This document shows, in pieces, positions 1,668 to 10,751 of a stretch of DNA of 15,020 bases. The stretch's first letter is position 1. The number at the start of each line of letters is the position of its first letter. The translations under genes and the position numbers were made by a program. Where the stretch lies: the NCBI GenBank assembly GCA_002900555.1, contig MUGD01000044.1, positions 1 through 15,020 of the forward strand. The letters run 5' to 3'. Origin of the DNA: Thermoplasmata archaeon M9B2D. Lineage in GTDB: Archaea; Thermoplasmatota; E2; DHVEG-1. Under the pieces are notes generated by a model that saw only the letters and a program-made list of their open reading frames with translations, made no database searches and was not told the origin of the DNA.

Positions 1668-3071
1668 ATGAAGAAACACATCATCTCATTACTGGTTTTA
1701 CTCTTGTTGGTGTCGAGTTCTTTGGTGGGTGTTTCAAATCCGATAACATCCTTGGATTCTGGGAATCATTCACCTATACGGATTATTGGGAATGAACAGT
1801 TCACAGAGGAAAATGGTGTCACAGGTGGAAGTGGAACTGCGGATGACCCTTACATTATTGAGAACTGGGTGATTGTTAGTGATGGGTCAGCATCCCAGGG
1901 TATCTTCATCAATAATACTGATGCTTACTTCATTATCAGGAATTGCACTATCAGTGGTTTTCAGCATCCAACTGACTATCGACAAGGAATCACATTAGCT
2001 GAGGTAACCAATGGAGTAATACAAGATACAAAGGTCAATGAAAGTGCAACAGGTATCGACCTTCGATATTCGGCAGAAAATAAGATACAGAATTGTACCT
2101 GTTCTGATTCCTACGATGATGCCTCAGGATATGGTATCTATATTTTTCATTCGATAAACACTACTATCATTGGTTGTAAATGCTATAACTTGAGGTGGGG
2201 CATTCACGCCTCAGAATCATCAAGGATTATTTTACAGAAAACAGAGTGTTATGATAATTTAAACGCTGGATTTATTTCCCTTGATGTTCCTGCTACACAT
2301 TTTCTCATTGAGGATTCTACATTCTTTAACAATGGATGGGGTGGCATCGACCTTAGTGGTGTGTCTGCGCCCTATCCATCAGGTACTATCATTCGAAACT
2401 GTTCTTTTTATTCTAATGGTCTTGAACCTGTGGAAAACCTATACTACAACGGTTTATCCATTCGGCGTTTTCGGAATACCACTATTGAAAATTGTACCTT
2501 TCAGCAGAATGGATATGGGTTAGCACTTTGGGATAGAGTAAAGAATATTATCATAAGAAATTGTAGTTTCCTTTATAATGAACAGGAAGGATTAGATATT
2601 GCTGGGGAGTTTATGTTCTTCACGTTTGCTCCAAATACCGAGATATCGTATTGTGATTTTATTGGGAATAAAGAGGGTGGATTATTGTTATATGCAACTC
2701 GGGGGACCAGGGTGCATCATTGCTGGTTTATGAACAATTCAAAAAATGGAGTGGTAGTTGCTTTTTGTTCTGCACAACTTACTTCGAATAACTTCGTGAA
2801 CAATGGGATAGAATATACTGATGAGAATGGTTCGTGTGGAGCATGTCTTTGGGCTTCCTCTACTGATATCCGTAATAATTATTGGGGGAATCCTGAAGGT
2901 CCGAGTGTCTCCCTTTTGGTCAGGTCTAATAATCATACTGCTAAATTAATACCTATACGAGTCATTGATGATAGTGACACTATTCTATTTCAAGGAGTGT
3001 TTGGAAGACTTGTTTCTCGTTTTCGTCCCTGGCTATCTGAACCTGTTCCTAATGCTGGTAGACAAACATAA
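1668..3071 (+). CDS. Secreted NosD-like parallel beta-helix protein
   Basis: Predicted surface or secreted protein; substrate unknown. Residues 1-24 are a Sec-type signal peptide (MKKH, then a Leu/Val/Ser-rich core). After a GGSGTADDPYIIENW entry motif at residues 53-67, about 340 residues form right-handed beta-helix coils of the PbH1/NosD type, seen as repeated units such as IIRNCTI, IIRNCSF, TIENCTF. Cysteine recurs at the same place in these coils (C93, C143, C170, C194, C245, C276, C299, C329, C352), which would stack as a ladder. The helix closes at NNYWGNPEGPS (403-413), the usual end signature of these proteins. No membrane anchor is visible in the C-terminal tail. Family members bind or cleave polysaccharides or serve as scaffolds; carbohydrate activity cannot be assigned here. 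The start is supported by GGGTAGGA nine bases upstream. Confidence 0.85.
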   Translation: MKKHIISLLVLLLLVSSSLVGVSNPITSLDSGNHSPIRIIGNEQFTEENGVTGGSGTADDPYIIENWVIVSDGSASQGIFINNTDAYFIIRNCTISGFQHPTDYRQGITLAEVTNGVIQDTKVNESATGIDLRYSAENKIQNCTCSDSYDDASGYGIYIFHSINTTIIGCKCYNLRWGIHASESSRIILQKTECYDNLNAGFISLDVPATHFLIEDSTFFNNGWGGIDLSGVSAPYPSGTIIRNCSFYSNGLEPVENLYYNGLSIRRFRNTTIENCTFQQNGYGLALWDRVKNIIIRNCSFLYNEQEGLDIAGEFMFFTFAPNTEISYCDFIGNKEGGLLLYATRGTRVHHCWFMNNSKNGVVVAFCSAQLTSNNFVNNGIEYTDENGSCGACLWASSTDIRNNYWGNPEGPSVSLLVRSNNHTAKLIPIRVIDDSDTILFQGVFGRLVSRFRPWLSEPVPNAGRQT

Positions 3072-3153: not shown

Positions 3154-4098
3154 ATGGATAAGAAACCTCTCATTATGAAATGGTTGGCGGTTGGAATCAT
3201 CCTTTTGTTCGTTGGAACCTATATCATTCCAGCGATAGCACAAACAACTGAGAAATCTCAATCAATATCCCGAGGGACCTGGTTGTATGTTGGTGGGAGT
3301 GGACCCGGGAACTACACAAGGATTCAGGATGCGATTGATAACGCAAGTGATGGGGATACCGTTTTTGTGTATGATGATTCCTCGCCATATTATCAAAAAG
3401 TGAGAATTAAAAAGAGTATAAATCTAATAGGAGAAAACTGTGAGACAACCTTTATTGATGGTAATCATAGTGGAGATGTTGTTGCAATAAGTATATCATC
3501 TGTTAATCTTAGTGGCTTTACTATTCGAAATAGTGGTGAGTACCCCTCAATTTGCGCAGGTATCCAACTATTTACTGGTCTTGGTGATATAACAATTTTT
3601 GATAATATACTTTCCAATAATTATCAAGGAATAGATAATTATGCTAATTCCCGTATTCATATCTATAATAATATTTTCTCAGAAAATTCAAAAGGCGTAG
3701 ATTTCTTCTACGGCAAGAGTTGCTCTGTGCATAATAATCTTTTTTTGAATAATTCCTATGGTATTACAGCACTTGGTGCTTTAGGAGATTCAAATATTAT
3801 CTTTAGTAATGAATTTCGAGACAATGATATTGGGATAAACTTTTTCCGTTATCAAAAAGCAGAAATATATCGTAATAATTTTATCAAGAATGCCAAACAC
3901 GCTTATTTTGTAAATGACCAAGGTTTCATTATTAATGCTTATGATAAACAAACTTGGTATCGTAATTATTGGGATGATTGCAGTAACCTAATTGTTAAAG
4001 TTATAGTGGGAGAAGGAAGAAATTGGATTAAGTATAAAATCTATGACTTTGATTGGTTCCCAGCACATAAACCCTATGACATTGGAGTACAATGGTAA
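3154..4098 (+). CDS. Secreted NosD-like beta-helix protein
   Basis: Predicted exported protein of 314 residues. Residues 8-30 (IMKWLAVGIILLFVG, ending at AIAQ) form an export signal that is nearly the same in the next gene. The entry motif VGGSGPGNYTRIQDAIDNAS (46-65) followed by DGDTVFVYDD is the hallmark start of archaeal NosD-like beta-helices and recurs in the minus-strand protein at 9138-10727. About eight coils follow, rich in NN turns (IYNNIF, VHNNLF, IYRNNF), closing at RNYWDD (270-275). The tail FDWFPAHKPYDI is a recurring ending in such proteins. It is shorter than the first beta-helix protein and lacks PKD or Ig-like domains. Codon use is markedly A/T-rich compared with the ABC transporter genes. 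Its stop overlaps the start of the next gene, so the two are probably translated from one message. Function is not known. Confidence 0.85.
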   Translation: MDKKPLIMKWLAVGIILLFVGTYIIPAIAQTTEKSQSISRGTWLYVGGSGPGNYTRIQDAIDNASDGDTVFVYDDSSPYYQKVRIKKSINLIGENCETTFIDGNHSGDVVAISISSVNLSGFTIRNSGEYPSICAGIQLFTGLGDITIFDNILSNNYQGIDNYANSRIHIYNNIFSENSKGVDFFYGKSCSVHNNLFLNNSYGITALGALGDSNIIFSNEFRDNDIGINFFRYQKAEIYRNNFIKNAKHAYFVNDQGFIINAYDKQTWYRNYWDDCSNLIVKVIVGEGRNWIKYKIYDFDWFPAHKPYDIGVQW

Positions 4099-5036
4099 AA
4101 GAAACTTGGATTATGAAAGGTTTAGTTGTTATTGTTATCTTCTTATTCATCGGTGTTGCAGTCGCACCAAGCATCAACCAGAATATTGTCAAAGCATCCA
4201 ATGATGATGACCTTGTCGAAGTCACTTCGCAAGCCTGTGGCATCAAAGGATATGAGGATACCACGGTGAAACTCACCAGAGAACAATACCAGAATCTCGA
4301 GCAGTATTTTGTTGAGTTCAGAGCACGGTTGAACCAGACATCAACAAGAGAGGAGGCAGTCCCATTGTTCAAGGATGCAGTGGTGGAGTTGGACAAGTAT
4401 GGGTTGTTGCCGAAGGGGATGAGTGTTGAACAGTTTCAACGAATAATAACTGGATTATTTCAGGATAAAAAGTTCACGAAACTTCAGGAGAAATTAGCAC
4501 AATTCTTGCCATCTGCGGATAATAATAGCAATTCTTTTTGTCTGGTTGCAGGTTCTACTACGAAGTCTGTGATAGTTCCACCTGGAATGATTCTTATGGG
4601 TGGAGTATTGTTGAGTTTCAATGCATTAGCCATTATTATATTTGGGATTGCCAGAACGTTGGGCTTTAATTTTTCATTTGCACTCTTTATATCAGAGGGT
4701 ATTTTCGGTGTTTTAGCAGCAGCCACTCTCTTGAGTTATTTTCTTCCTTTTGCATTATTTGGTGTAATAACGTTGGGTGGTTGGACTTGGCATTATGAAC
4801 CATATTATCCGATTTTTCATCCTTCTTCTGGGTGGGTTCAGAGTTACGGTATTCAAAAAAATAAGAAATGGGAAGGGCAATTATACGGGCAATTTTTTAT
4901 GGTTCCATTCATTGAATCGGCAGCGTATGCTGGTATCATTGGATTTACAGGTATTAAAATAATAGCTCGTGATAGTTGTCATTATATAGGTTCTGCTCTT
5001 TGGATTAAGATAGGTCCAGAACATCCAGAAGAATAA
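4092..5036 (+). CDS. Exported or membrane-associated protein of unknown function
   Basis: Not recognised by function. The ATG at 4092 overlaps the previous stop by seven bases, pointing to translational coupling. Residues 7-30 form a signal or anchor segment (IMKGLVVIVIFLFIG, to SINQ) closely like that of the upstream gene. Residues 55-140 are a predicted helical, charged segment containing KLTREQYQNLEQYF and YGLLPKGMSVEQ. Residues 160-230 contain two or three hydrophobic spans, so this is likely a membrane protein. The C-terminal region has W/Y-rich motifs, EGQLYGQF (261-268), GFTGIKI (284-290) and IGSALWIKIG (299-308), and looks beta-rich. C49, C150 and C296 are the only cysteines. The arrangement suggests a lineage-specific surface protein working beside the beta-helix protein, but nothing shows an enzymatic site. 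Confidence 0.8.
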   Translation: MVKETWIMKGLVVIVIFLFIGVAVAPSINQNIVKASNDDDLVEVTSQACGIKGYEDTTVKLTREQYQNLEQYFVEFRARLNQTSTREEAVPLFKDAVVELDKYGLLPKGMSVEQFQRIITGLFQDKKFTKLQEKLAQFLPSADNNSNSFCLVAGSTTKSVIVPPGMILMGGVLLSFNALAIIIFGIARTLGFNFSFALFISEGIFGVLAAATLLSYFLPFALFGVITLGGWTWHYEPYYPIFHPSSGWVQSYGIQKNKKWEGQLYGQFFMVPFIESAAYAGIIGFTGIKIIARDSCHYIGSALWIKIGPEHPEE

Positions 5037-6893: not shown

Positions 6894-7966
6894 TGCAGTG
6901 GAGAAACGCGTGGATAGTAATGCGAAAGGACCTTGCTGAGTTTCGGAAGCAGAAACTTGTCATCGGGTCAATCGTTGCCATGCCCATCATCCTTGGTGTT
7001 GTCATGCCGCTTGCGACCTTTGTTCCGATAATAACCATGATACCGCAAAATGAATCATGGGATATCCCCGGACTTGTTGAACTAGGAAGTCTGCCTGATG
7101 ATTTTTCTGTCCCAAGGACGAATAACACGATTGAAGAGCGCGTGTTTACTGCGGTAGTTTTTCAGCATACGACCCTAAGAAACGTAAATCTTTCCAATTG
7201 CATCATCATCTCCTGTGTCCTTGAGGACGTCACCGTCAGGGATTCAACAATCACAAACAGCTCACTGGACGGAGCATATCTTGAGAACGTCACCGTGGTT
7301 CTTTCTGAGGGCATCAGGCTTGATGGCCGCTCGATCCTTTCGGTGTCATCAAACCTTTTTTTCATACGAACAAAGCCATCGGAGATACATCAGGTGCTCC
7401 CGATGATGTTTAACATGATGCTGATGATCTTTATCATCGTGCCTGCGACGCTTCCAACAATCATTGCCACCTACAGTATTGTTGGAGAGAAGAACAACCG
7501 TAGTTTGGAGCCGTTGCTGGCGACGCCGACAACCGATGGCGAGTTGCTTGCAGGAAAGATTTTCTCCTCATTTGCCCCTTCGATGGGATCGACGTTTCTC
7601 GCGTTTTGCTTAGGTGTTGTATTGCTCGATGTCTTACTGCTTCCACAGGTCGACTATCCGCTGATGCCGAATCTCACCTGGATTTTATCGATTGTGCTCC
7701 TGGCGCCAACCACGTGTCTGATGAGTGTTCTTGCCTGCGTCCTGGTCTCCTCAAAGGTCAGTGACGTTCGGGCCGCTCAACAGCTTGGTGGGTTTGTTGT
7801 CATGCCTGTTGTCGTGCTAATGATTGGTGTCATGTCTGGATTTCTCTTCCTTTCACCGCTCACGGTGGTGACGTTCGCTGGTCTGTATGGATGTCTGGAC
7901 ATCGGATTGTTTTATTTTGTCAGAGCGGTATTTAACAGGGAGAAAATCCTGACGACCTGGAAGTAA
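6893..7966 (+). CDS. ABC-2 type transporter permease with a pentapeptide-repeat insert
   Basis: Membrane partner of the ATPase just upstream. A first membrane span lies at about residues 22-50. A large soluble loop of about 115 residues follows, then four to five spans (about 172-197, 222-250, 260-286, 299-321, 323-345). The ABC-2 family motif GEKNNRSLEPLLATPTTDGE (198-217) is present after the second span, confirming the family. The soluble loop, expected outside the cell, contains a regular five-residue repeat at 83-137 with Leu, Ile, Val or Phe at every fifth position (85 to 135) and small residues two places before. I know of no typical ABC-2 permease with such a domain. Length (357) is slightly below the usual 370-400 for this type. 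GGGGAGGG lies just before the start codon. The substrate could be a lipid, glycan, peptide or ion; context slightly favours surface material. Confidence 0.9.
   Translation: MQWRNAWIVMRKDLAEFRKQKLVIGSIVAMPIILGVVMPLATFVPIITMIPQNESWDIPGLVELGSLPDDFSVPRTNNTIEERVFTAVVFQHTTLRNVNLSNCIIISCVLEDVTVRDSTITNSSLDGAYLENVTVVLSEGIRLDGRSILSVSSNLFFIRTKPSEIHQVLPMMFNMMLMIFIIVPATLPTIIATYSIVGEKNNRSLEPLLATPTTDGELLAGKIFSSFAPSMGSTFLAFCLGVVLLDVLLLPQVDYPLMPNLTWILSIVLLAPTTCLMSVLACVLVSSKVSDVRAAQQLGGFVVMPVVVLMIGVMSGFLFLSPLTVVTFAGLYGCLDIGLFYFVRAVFNREKILTTWK
7139..7303 (+). other. Pentapeptide-repeat segment encoded within the permease
   Basis: Eleven consecutive five-residue units cover residues 83-137. Central residues are F85, F90, L95, L100, I105, L110, V115, I120, L125, L130, V135. 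The residue two before each is V, T, V, C, C, V, S, S, A, V from the second unit on, the small residues expected inside a right-handed quadrilateral beta-helix. The register is lost after 137. Confidence 0.7.
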
Positions 7967-9137: not shown

Positions 9138-9146
9138 TTATTTAAA
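9138..9146 (-). promoter_or_regulatory. TATA box of the sulfotransferase gene, inside the end of the upstream gene
   Basis: TTTAAATAA on the minus strand lies about 25-30 bases before the ATG at 9113, so transcription would begin at or within a few bases of the start codon. The same nine bases encode the last Phe-Lys and stop of the beta-helix/PKD protein. Confidence 0.5.
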
Positions 9147-10727
9147 CGTTCTGAAGGAACAGGGTCCATGCTGAAAAAGGATCAGGAGAAGCGGGAATGC
9201 AAAAAAAAATTTTTCTATGATTTTTATGAACAGCGGATGAATCGCCATGGTTTTTGGTATGGTGACTTCTAACGTCCCCCAATCACTCTCCAACCCATAC
9301 GTATCTTTGGCTTTGGCTTTCACGGTGTATATCCCTTTTGACATAAAGGCGTGCGTGATTGTCAGTGTGTCTCCTGATATGATTGGTCCAAGCCAGCTGC
9401 TCTGTGTTCCGTCCCCCCAGTCAATGTAGTACGACAGGTTGTCATTATCTGGGTCTATTGCTGTAAGGCTGTAGGTGTATTCCACCTTTGGTTTTCCCTG
9501 TGAAGGACCGGTGATTGTCGGTGAATACGGTTGATTATTTGATGATTCACCTACTGTAAATGTCCATGTCTCTGATTGGTTTGTATATTCACCATCATCT
9601 GCGATTGCATACCAGCAATATACCGTGTTGTTCACTAGATTGTCCCATGTAAATGAAGCTGCTGTAAAACTTAGTATATTATACACAGTGCCGATGACAC
9701 TGTTGTCTGATGCATCATAGAAGGTTACATCCATGGCCTCTTCTCCAGGGTCTACAACATGCACGGAAAGAACAGCGTTGGTTGGTACGCCTGTTTCATG
9801 ATTTCGTGGGTACTGATTTGAAGGTGCATAGGGCGGCTCGTTCCAGAATGTCATTAATGGATAGTAATCTTTATTCGTTCCACCTGGTATACTGTACGGT
9901 GTATCTCCGATACCATCACCGTTGATATCAGATCCAGTATAATCATCCCAATAGTTACCGCCTGATGGATAGCCATCATCCCAGACGTTTGCGCATGTAT
10001 CTTTTGCGTTTTGGTCGTTTACATAAAAATTGTTGTGATAGAAATTGTTGTTGTTTGAAGATTGCGTCGCTTCTATGCCATAGATATGGTCTTTTATGGT
10101 ATTTCCATGTATCGTGTTTGTTGTTGAGGAATGAAGGAAAATCCCCTCCAAACTGGTTTGGATTATGTTTGCTGATATGTGGATTTGTGAACTGTTCACT
10201 GGGTTTATCCCCTCAAAGTCATTGTTTTTGATAATGTTACTTGAGATAATTCCCTGTGACGTACTTAACAGACCTATTCCTTCCCAGTTGTCAATGATTG
10301 TATTTTCTGTAACGGCGAAAAAGGAGGAATAGGCTAGGTAGATTCCTATTTTTCCTTTCTGTATTGTGAACCGCATAATAGTAACGTTATTCGCCTGGAC
10401 TCTGATGATATTGTTCGCGTAATTTCCTTGGATAATTGTGTGTTCGCGGGTTTCACCGATGAGGTTTATTTGCTTGTTTATGAAAAGATATTCCTGATAT
10501 ATCCCGCGGTAGACAAAGATCGTATCGTGATTGCTTGCGTTGTCAATGGCATCTTGTATTTTTGTATAGTTTTCGGGCCCGGTTCCACCTACACACAAGG
10601 TCTGTGAGAAATACAAAGGATGGAGTGTCCTATCATCAGTTCGTTGAGTCGCGGTTGTTAGAGGAACCAGAGTTATTATTATAAATATAATTATTATTTT
10701 TATACATATATTTTTTATGAGCCTCAT
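9138..10727 (-). CDS. Secreted beta-helix (NosD-like) and PKD-domain surface protein
   Basis: Predicted cell-surface protein of 529 residues. An ATG at 10727 is preferred over a TTG at 10742 because GGGGGA lies eight bases before it. Counted from that ATG, residues 1-27 are an Ile-rich signal peptide, VGGTGPENYTKIQDAIDNAS (46-65) opens a NosD-type beta-helix running to NYWDDYTGSDINGDGIGDTPY (about 258-278, with acidic residues that may bind calcium), an Ig/fibronectin-III-like domain spans about 297-393, and a PKD domain spans about 398-490 (IDWGDGTQSSW; GIYTVKAKAKDTYG). A short aromatic and basic tail follows (FIKIIEKFFFAFPLLLILFQ), possibly a membrane-associated sorting tail. It is larger than the two plus-strand beta-helix proteins and shares their entry motif. 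PKD domains usually mediate binding to other proteins or glycans; the ligand is unknown. Confidence 0.88.
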   Translation of the reverse strand: MRLIKNICIKIIIIFIIITLVPLTTATQRTDDRTLHPLYFSQTLCVGGTGPENYTKIQDAIDNASNHDTIFVYRGIYQEYLFINKQINLIGETREHTIIQGNYANNIIRVQANNVTIMRFTIQKGKIGIYLAYSSFFAVTENTIIDNWEGIGLLSTSQGIISSNIIKNNDFEGINPVNSSQIHISANIIQTSLEGIFLHSSTTNTIHGNTIKDHIYGIEATQSSNNNNFYHNNFYVNDQNAKDTCANVWDDGYPSGGNYWDDYTGSDINGDGIGDTPYSIPGGTNKDYYPLMTFWNEPPYAPSNQYPRNHETGVPTNAVLSVHVVDPGEEAMDVTFYDASDNSVIGTVYNILSFTAASFTWDNLVNNTVYCWYAIADDGEYTNQSETWTFTVGESSNNQPYSPTITGPSQGKPKVEYTYSLTAIDPDNDNLSYYIDWGDGTQSSWLGPIISGDTLTITHAFMSKGIYTVKAKAKDTYGLESDWGTLEVTIPKTMAIHPLFIKIIEKFFFAFPLLLILFQHGPCSFRTFK

Positions 10728-10751
10728 TCGGTGGTCCCCCAAGATTAAAAT

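Follow-up and report, generated by a model that had tools for sequence, protein, structure and literature searches.

Which fold is carried by the long first outer loop of an ATP-binding cassette (ABC) permease in a Thermoplasmata archaeon, and how many sides does it have? The window, the whole 15,020-nucleotide stretch of Thermoplasmata archaeon M9B2D analyzed here (contig MUGD01000044.1), encodes an ABC ATPase and an ABC-2 permease in which eleven five-residue units lie between membrane helices 1 and 2. Computation directly shows the repeat, where it lies and how well it is kept, its presence in some homologues and absence from others, the predicted fold and a covariation at 15 residues. We consider it likely, at a probability of about 0.65, that the outer domain of a widespread archaeal ABC-2 exporter family is a natural pentapeptide helix, unknotted and three-sided, with one pentapeptide per face and 15 residues per coil.

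The repeat, its location and its distribution

In the window permease, a large hydrophobic residue occupies all eleven "i" positions (residues 85, 90 and so on to 135), and the five-residue register accounts for 41% of the variance in hydropathy (p = 0.0002, the lowest value that 5000 shuffles can give). The five-periodicity is the strongest in the whole permease, with the top eight 55-residue segments beginning at residues 76–85. Relatives were compared in a set of 276 available sequences of at least 325 amino acids (aa), a length that leaves out insert-less permeases; L035, long only through a wrong start, was removed by name. Across this set, 2994 of 3036 "i" cells are hydrophobic, with at least 10 of 11 in every sequence, and 2687 of 3036 i-2 cells are small (A, S, T, C, V or G; mostly S, C, T and V). 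The core of the repeat is dominated by I, V and L, N (39%) and D (14%) predominate at position i+2, and the outward i+1 positions are the most variable, with entropy up to 3.6 bits. Additionally, the repeat pattern is kept in a 121-row alignment of the window permease and the best 120 relatives listed (59–95% identity), in which C108, G140, G145 and F157 are invariant and C103 is present in 119 rows; the relatives listed were the best 120 of 2268 in one protein search and the best 120 of 1308 in another.

The Pfam profile PF00805 scored 24.9 bits on the isolated loop, above its cut-off of 20.2, and 19.8 bits, just under it, on the whole permease. This profile was sub-threshold or absent in all 10 relatives scanned, and PF13599 fell below its cut-off on the window permease. 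Profile similarity to solved pentapeptide proteins reached E = 1e-11 for AlbG/McbG-like proteins and 2e-9 for MfpA. The loop therefore shares with the pentapeptide family both a run of at least eight contiguous pentapeptides (here eleven) and sequence similarity to known members.

The full structure model places a helix at residues 21–49, strands at 62–157 and a helix at 164–205, and AlphaFold2 on the domain alone gave a confident beta-helix (predicted local distance difference test, pLDDT, 91.5), neither disordered nor an ordinary ABC-2 loop. The N-terminus of the permease is basic, with 6 K/R within 21 residues, and the GEKNNRSLEPLLATP segment at residues 198–212 is presumably the cytoplasmic coupling region of ABC-2 permeases. 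Because the helix order sets the loop opposite both, the loop would lie on the outer face of the membrane. The loops contain on average 5.4 sequons, where 2.2 would be expected; since the rest of the protein is likewise enriched (1.7 vs 0.7), they lend weak support to an outer position, and the domain is probably N-glycosylated. An earlier note on this DNA had described eleven units in perfect register, with small residues two places before each hydrophobic one, as a pentapeptide domain between the first membrane span and the ABC-2 core. This description is borne out in both repeat and location, and the periodicity persists in all 276 long relatives.

Among 389 Thermoplasmatota genomes scanned, 70 had a match. 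The permeases at these loci fall into three grades: A, similar to that of the window; B and D, 24–40% identical over aligned columns and with the repeat block in register; and insert-free. The last are mostly 244–274 aa long, and their helix 1–2 loop is usually about a dozen residues. Insert-bearing genes were counted in 27 of the 389 genomes: 15 of grade B, 10 of grade A (including a broken one) and 2 of grade D. Of 48 homologue rows compared, 27 carry the insert, all with the five-residue register at p ≤ 0.0004, and 21 lack it, so that orthologues of both kinds exist, as the earlier note had proposed to check. Left out of this set were L006–L010 (copies of L001–L005), L015 with L055, and the truncated L044; L015 and L055, from genome G241, are one grade-A permease gene split into open frames of 216 and 124 aa. 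Two genomes, G297 and G289, carry both insert-bearing and insert-free permeases. On the core and ATPase trees, the insert trait needs three changes, one of which is forced by starred branches. Each locus listed also contains an ATPase belonging to the same family, and the insert is therefore an outer domain that is optional in an otherwise common exporter encoded by two genes.

Number of sides of the predicted beta-helix

Foldseek ranked SV2 first for the domain model. However, its superpositions on SV2 chains at E ≤ 0.001 gave template modeling (TM) scores of 0.20–0.34 and a root-mean-square deviation (rmsd) near 10, which is poor for a shared fold. A second aligner (VIA) placed 73 consecutive model residues over 93 of MfpA (three entries, rmsd 2.1–2.4), 78 over 97 of SV2A and 84 over 107 of 2g0y. 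These alignments to solved pentapeptide proteins leave out about five chain residues per coil, which explains the poor superposition on SV2. Calculated as 20 × aligned residues / chain span, the 13 pentapeptide or SV2 rows of VIA correspond to 11.8–16.1 residues per coil, the lower values reflecting chains that contain insertions or further skipped segments. The top VIA row was a bactofilin, with 80 model residues over 90; bactofilins are three-sided helices, and Pfam listed no bactofilin family at E ≤ 10. The superposition on the right-handed MfpA indicates, indirectly, a right-handed beta-helix. Searching a viral structure library with the domain returned no informative match, and tblastn of the loop against phage records returned none.

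Residue covariation provides a second measure of coil length. Lags 15 and 20 could not be told apart by simple profile autocorrelation of the repeat columns (p 0.45 and 0.38), and mutual information over 159 sequences was ambiguous, with means of 0.024 at lag 15, 0.022 at lag 16 and 0.014 at lag 20 and the single best pair at lag 20. Mean-field coupling across the 276 relatives placed the strongest long-range coupling at lag 15; the result was stable over settings, and lag 15 beat lag 20 in 40 of 40 bootstraps. One column-shuffled run still gave a slight excess at distance 3 (p 0.044), and the nulls were therefore generated by simulation along trees. Against these nulls, lag 15 reached z 3.45 (0/100) and 3.55 (0/300), and lag 20 gave z −0.12 and −0.17. 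The lag-15 signal comes mostly from the corner position i+2 (z 3.72), in the pairs 97–112, 117–132 and 122–137, and the B and D rows alone gave z 3.00 (0/150).

As a positive control, we used a conserved soluble pentapeptide family of the same phylum (131-aa query with 110 of 117 strong rows; effective size 14.5 sequences). With the same script, this family gave z 9.09 (0/60) at lag 20 and z 1.05 at lag 15; lags 10 and 18 were also at 0/60. Because the control peaks at 20 and the permease family at 15, the covariation analysis reads coil length and gives a different value for each of the two families. The control proteins themselves (L068:1432-1824 and the fetched relatives L080–L189) are about 131–150 aa long and have a conserved tryptophan-rich tail; the 117 strong rows stem from a scan of the 389 genomes for this family.

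Alternatively, the domain might have the usual four sides of a pentapeptide helix, as do MfpA, Qnr and SV2 luminal domain 4, with both AlphaFold2 and the covariation misleading. Several points weigh in this direction and against three sides: the sequence profiles match four-sided proteins, SV2 heads the Foldseek ranking, all solved pentapeptide proteins are four-sided according to a review, and the A rows alone, the grade of the window itself, give a lag-15 signal that is not significant (z 0.82, 28/150). Moreover, the three-sided shape rests on prediction. We nevertheless regard four sides as unlikely, given the low TM scores on SV2, the residues that VIA must skip in each coil and the flat lag 20 of a family whose control peaks there. 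Collectively, the model and the covariation suggest that the outer domain is probably three-sided, with three pentapeptides per coil. Four repeats (20 residues) per coil in a quadrilateral are not what the residue skips and the covariation predict, and the square beta-helix that the earlier note took over from the pentapeptide family is not supported and probably incorrect.

Comparison with known systems

ABC-2 exporters and pentapeptide repeats are both known already, and so is a transporter with a pentapeptide helix on its outer loop. The helix in question is SV2 luminal domain 4, as described in two papers (PMC8145042, PMC4885069). Like the permease domain, luminal domain 4 of SV2A/B/C (PF23894) is a pentapeptide helix in the outer loop of a transporter-like protein, and it gives the first Foldseek hit and sub-threshold Pfam matches. 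In contrast, SV2, which resides in vertebrate synaptic vesicles, spans the membrane 12 times, has a four-sided helix and the MFS (major facilitator superfamily) fold, and is not an ABC transporter. The window loop scored 20.5 bits for PF23894 (cut-off 29), and none of the domains of 10 relatives passed the cut-off (best, 24.9 bits).

The pentapeptide proteins (PF00805/PF13599; MfpA, Qnr, AlbG and HetL) share with the permease domain tandem units, a large hydrophobic i with a small i-2, profile similarity and, by superposition, right-handedness. In the review, these proteins are defined by four repeats per coil, with a published consensus of D/N at i-1. By contrast, the permease domain is predicted to have three repeats per coil, has Asn/Asp at i+2 and is part of a membrane transporter. 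The Knotted Solenoid (9RDS) is likewise triangular, and pentapeptide proteins are its nearest relatives (PMC13123833). Its fold is knotted, occurs in Brevundimonas-type bacteria and is not a transporter domain, whereas the permease domain keeps strict five-residue steps. NatAB, LnrLMN and YhaQP of Bacillus subtilis are hybrid type V/VI exporters whose outer domains are predicted to form either a sheet of five strands with helices or a coiled coil (PMC11466899); they share a type V membrane core and a large outer domain with the exporter described here, but these domains are not beta-helices.

Pentapeptides also occur in FtsX-type (type VII) ABC permeases of Thermoplasmatota, which are 1193–1207 aa long and carry them in a soluble domain between membrane parts; FtsX and PF00805 both exceeded their cut-offs in 4 of 4 tested, and open frames of 1200–1240 aa with a PF00805 match occur in at least 16 genomes. 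These permeases differ from the present one in permease fold and in their canonical A(D/N)Lxx repeats, and their pentapeptide domain is a separate acquisition. Long pentapeptide proteins were also seen (L056, L057, L058, L069, L072 and L073), some of which, judged by eye, begin like lipoproteins with an N-terminal segment that closes with a GC pair; pentapeptide proteins at the cell surface thus seem frequent in the phylum. The earlier note knew of no described case of such an insert. This needs qualification by the described, non-ABC SV2 domain and by the FtsX-type permeases found here, and stands for ABC outer loops: open-licence literature, the scope of the search, held no paper joining a pentapeptide repeat with the extracellular loop or domain of an ABC transporter permease. 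So far as that literature goes, the location in an ABC transporter and the coil of three pentapeptides are new.

Possible role and genomic surroundings

The ATPase and permease genes share one base, the ATPase stop TAA running into the permease ATG (TAATG). The permease exceeds the Pfam cut-offs for ABC2_membrane_2, _3 and _4, and the DrrA-type C-terminal domain of the ATPase exceeds its own (Table 1). With an ABC-2 permease domain and a co-encoded cognate ATPase, the pair is, by sequence, a type V (ABC-2) exporter, the export function being predicted. Among the nearest relatives, the permease of SM1-50 (Thermoplasmatales archaeon) is 87% identical, and the best protein match, named Thermoplasmatales archaeon, 95%.

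The best explanation as a whole, in our view a fairly probable one, is a homodimeric type V exporter with a beta-helix of three pentapeptides per coil as a rigid outer column. Two ATPases and two permeases would assemble, and the first outer loop of each permease would form a right-handed beta-helix about five coils high. The hydrophobic i and small i-2 residues would fill its interior, and its Asn/Asp-rich corners would probably be N-glycosylated. The base of the column would be tied to membrane helices 1 and 2, the attachment site also used by the outer domains of ABCA-type, NatB-type and LptFG-like transporters; ABCA transporters have large outer domains between these helices. Most likely, the column would move with helices 1 and 2 over the ATP cycle and would shape the exit side, which it could form or guard, or would retain there an outer partner or the molecule being exported.

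A passive spacer or shield, which clears the exporter mouth from the cell surface layer and contacts neither substrate nor partner, would fit the variability of the outward i+1 positions as well as the optional presence of the domain and the two genomes that hold both permease kinds. We consider it somewhat unlikely, because the register and the cap region are strongly kept (G140, G145 and F157 in 121 of 121 rows). Moreover, in three-fold numbering, one face has less variable i-1 positions (2.19 bits) than the other two (2.72 and 3.02 bits), a descriptive comparison without a significance test. A NosDFY-like machine, in which a separate outer NosD-like beta-helix protein docks on the pentapeptide column of a NosY-like core, is very unlikely, since, of the 6 loci with long flanks, 3 have NosD-like genes of one blast cluster beside the transporter, the insert-bearing genomes G252, G305 and G289 have only 1–2 NosD matches each, and ABCH, ABCA and ABCG cores score about equal to NosY. 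Unlike NosDFY, the exporter has no conserved NosD neighbor, and its helix is built of pentapeptides within the permease. NosD matches number 21–85 per genome in the nine nearest genomes searched and 0–2 in seven insert-less genomes, a difference that may follow the permease type or only the lineage. With NosD genes this numerous and near the transporter at half of the long loci, the suggested contact with nearby surface beta-helix proteins is unsupported. The window codes three NosD/beta-helix surface proteins (1668-3071, 3154-4098 and 9138-10742).

Also in the window, a sulfotransferase (PF13469; 7989-9113, − strand) and an arylsulfotransferase (PF05935; 11632-13389, + strand) flank the transporter. 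In the closest relatives only (L001–L004, L011, L012 and L015/L055), homologues of at least one of the two genes occur close to the transporter. These neighbors could point to a sulfated substrate or surface molecule, but we do not rely on that reading, as the flanks fetched for the remaining insert-bearing loci contain neither gene. A 314-aa protein (4092-5036, + strand) looks, by eye, to begin with a signal-like segment and to cross the membrane several times; it has no Pfam match at E ≤ 0.01. An Rfam scan gave no family at the gathering threshold.

Table 1. Features of the transporter in the window, and FtsX-type permeases in other loci (pTM, predicted TM score)
Feature	Position	Strand	Remarks
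ABC ATPase, 308 aa	5967..6893	+	PF00005 102.3 bits; DrrA-type C-terminal domain, residues 228-302, PF13732 32.4 bits (cut-off 27.4)
ABC-2 permease, 357 aa	6893..7966	+	PF12679 44.8 bits (cut-off 27.2); relatives at 59-95% identity among the best 120 listed
Membrane helix 1, residues 21-49	6953..7039	+	Helix in structure model
Outer domain, residues 51-163, between membrane helices 1 and 2	7043..7381	+	Domain-only model pLDDT 91.5, pTM 0.84; missing in 21/48 homologue rows; sequons N53, N77, N99, N122, N132
Eleven pentapeptide units, residues 83-137	7139..7303	+	Predicted three-sided right-handed beta-helix, 15 residues per coil
C-terminal strands of beta-helix and link to membrane helix 2, residues 138-157	7304..7363	+	Most conserved part of loop; G140, G145, F157 invariant (121- and 96-sequence alignments); strands 139-151 and 154-157 in model
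ABC-2 core, five further membrane helices	7382..7963	+	Conserved GEKNNRSLEPLLATP segment, residues 198-212
FtsX-type permeases with pentapeptides	L076:1341-4961, L077:217-3825, L078:58-3636, L079:213-3827		ABC ATPase genes on both sides in L076

If the three-sided helix is real, the repeat grammar is kept while the coil is closed with three pentapeptides, and the step length would not fix the number of sides. The domain would then offer a direct test of what sets that number, here with an I, V and L core and Asn/Asp at i+2, and a slimmer scaffold for design. It would also match the triangular shape put forward for pentapeptide proteins in 1998, which according to a 2021 review turned out to be incorrect and was set aside once four-sided structures had been solved. 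For type V ABC exporters, the column would be a new type of outer domain, and the insert-free relatives, together with the two genomes that carry both forms, make its role testable by comparison or swapping within one family.
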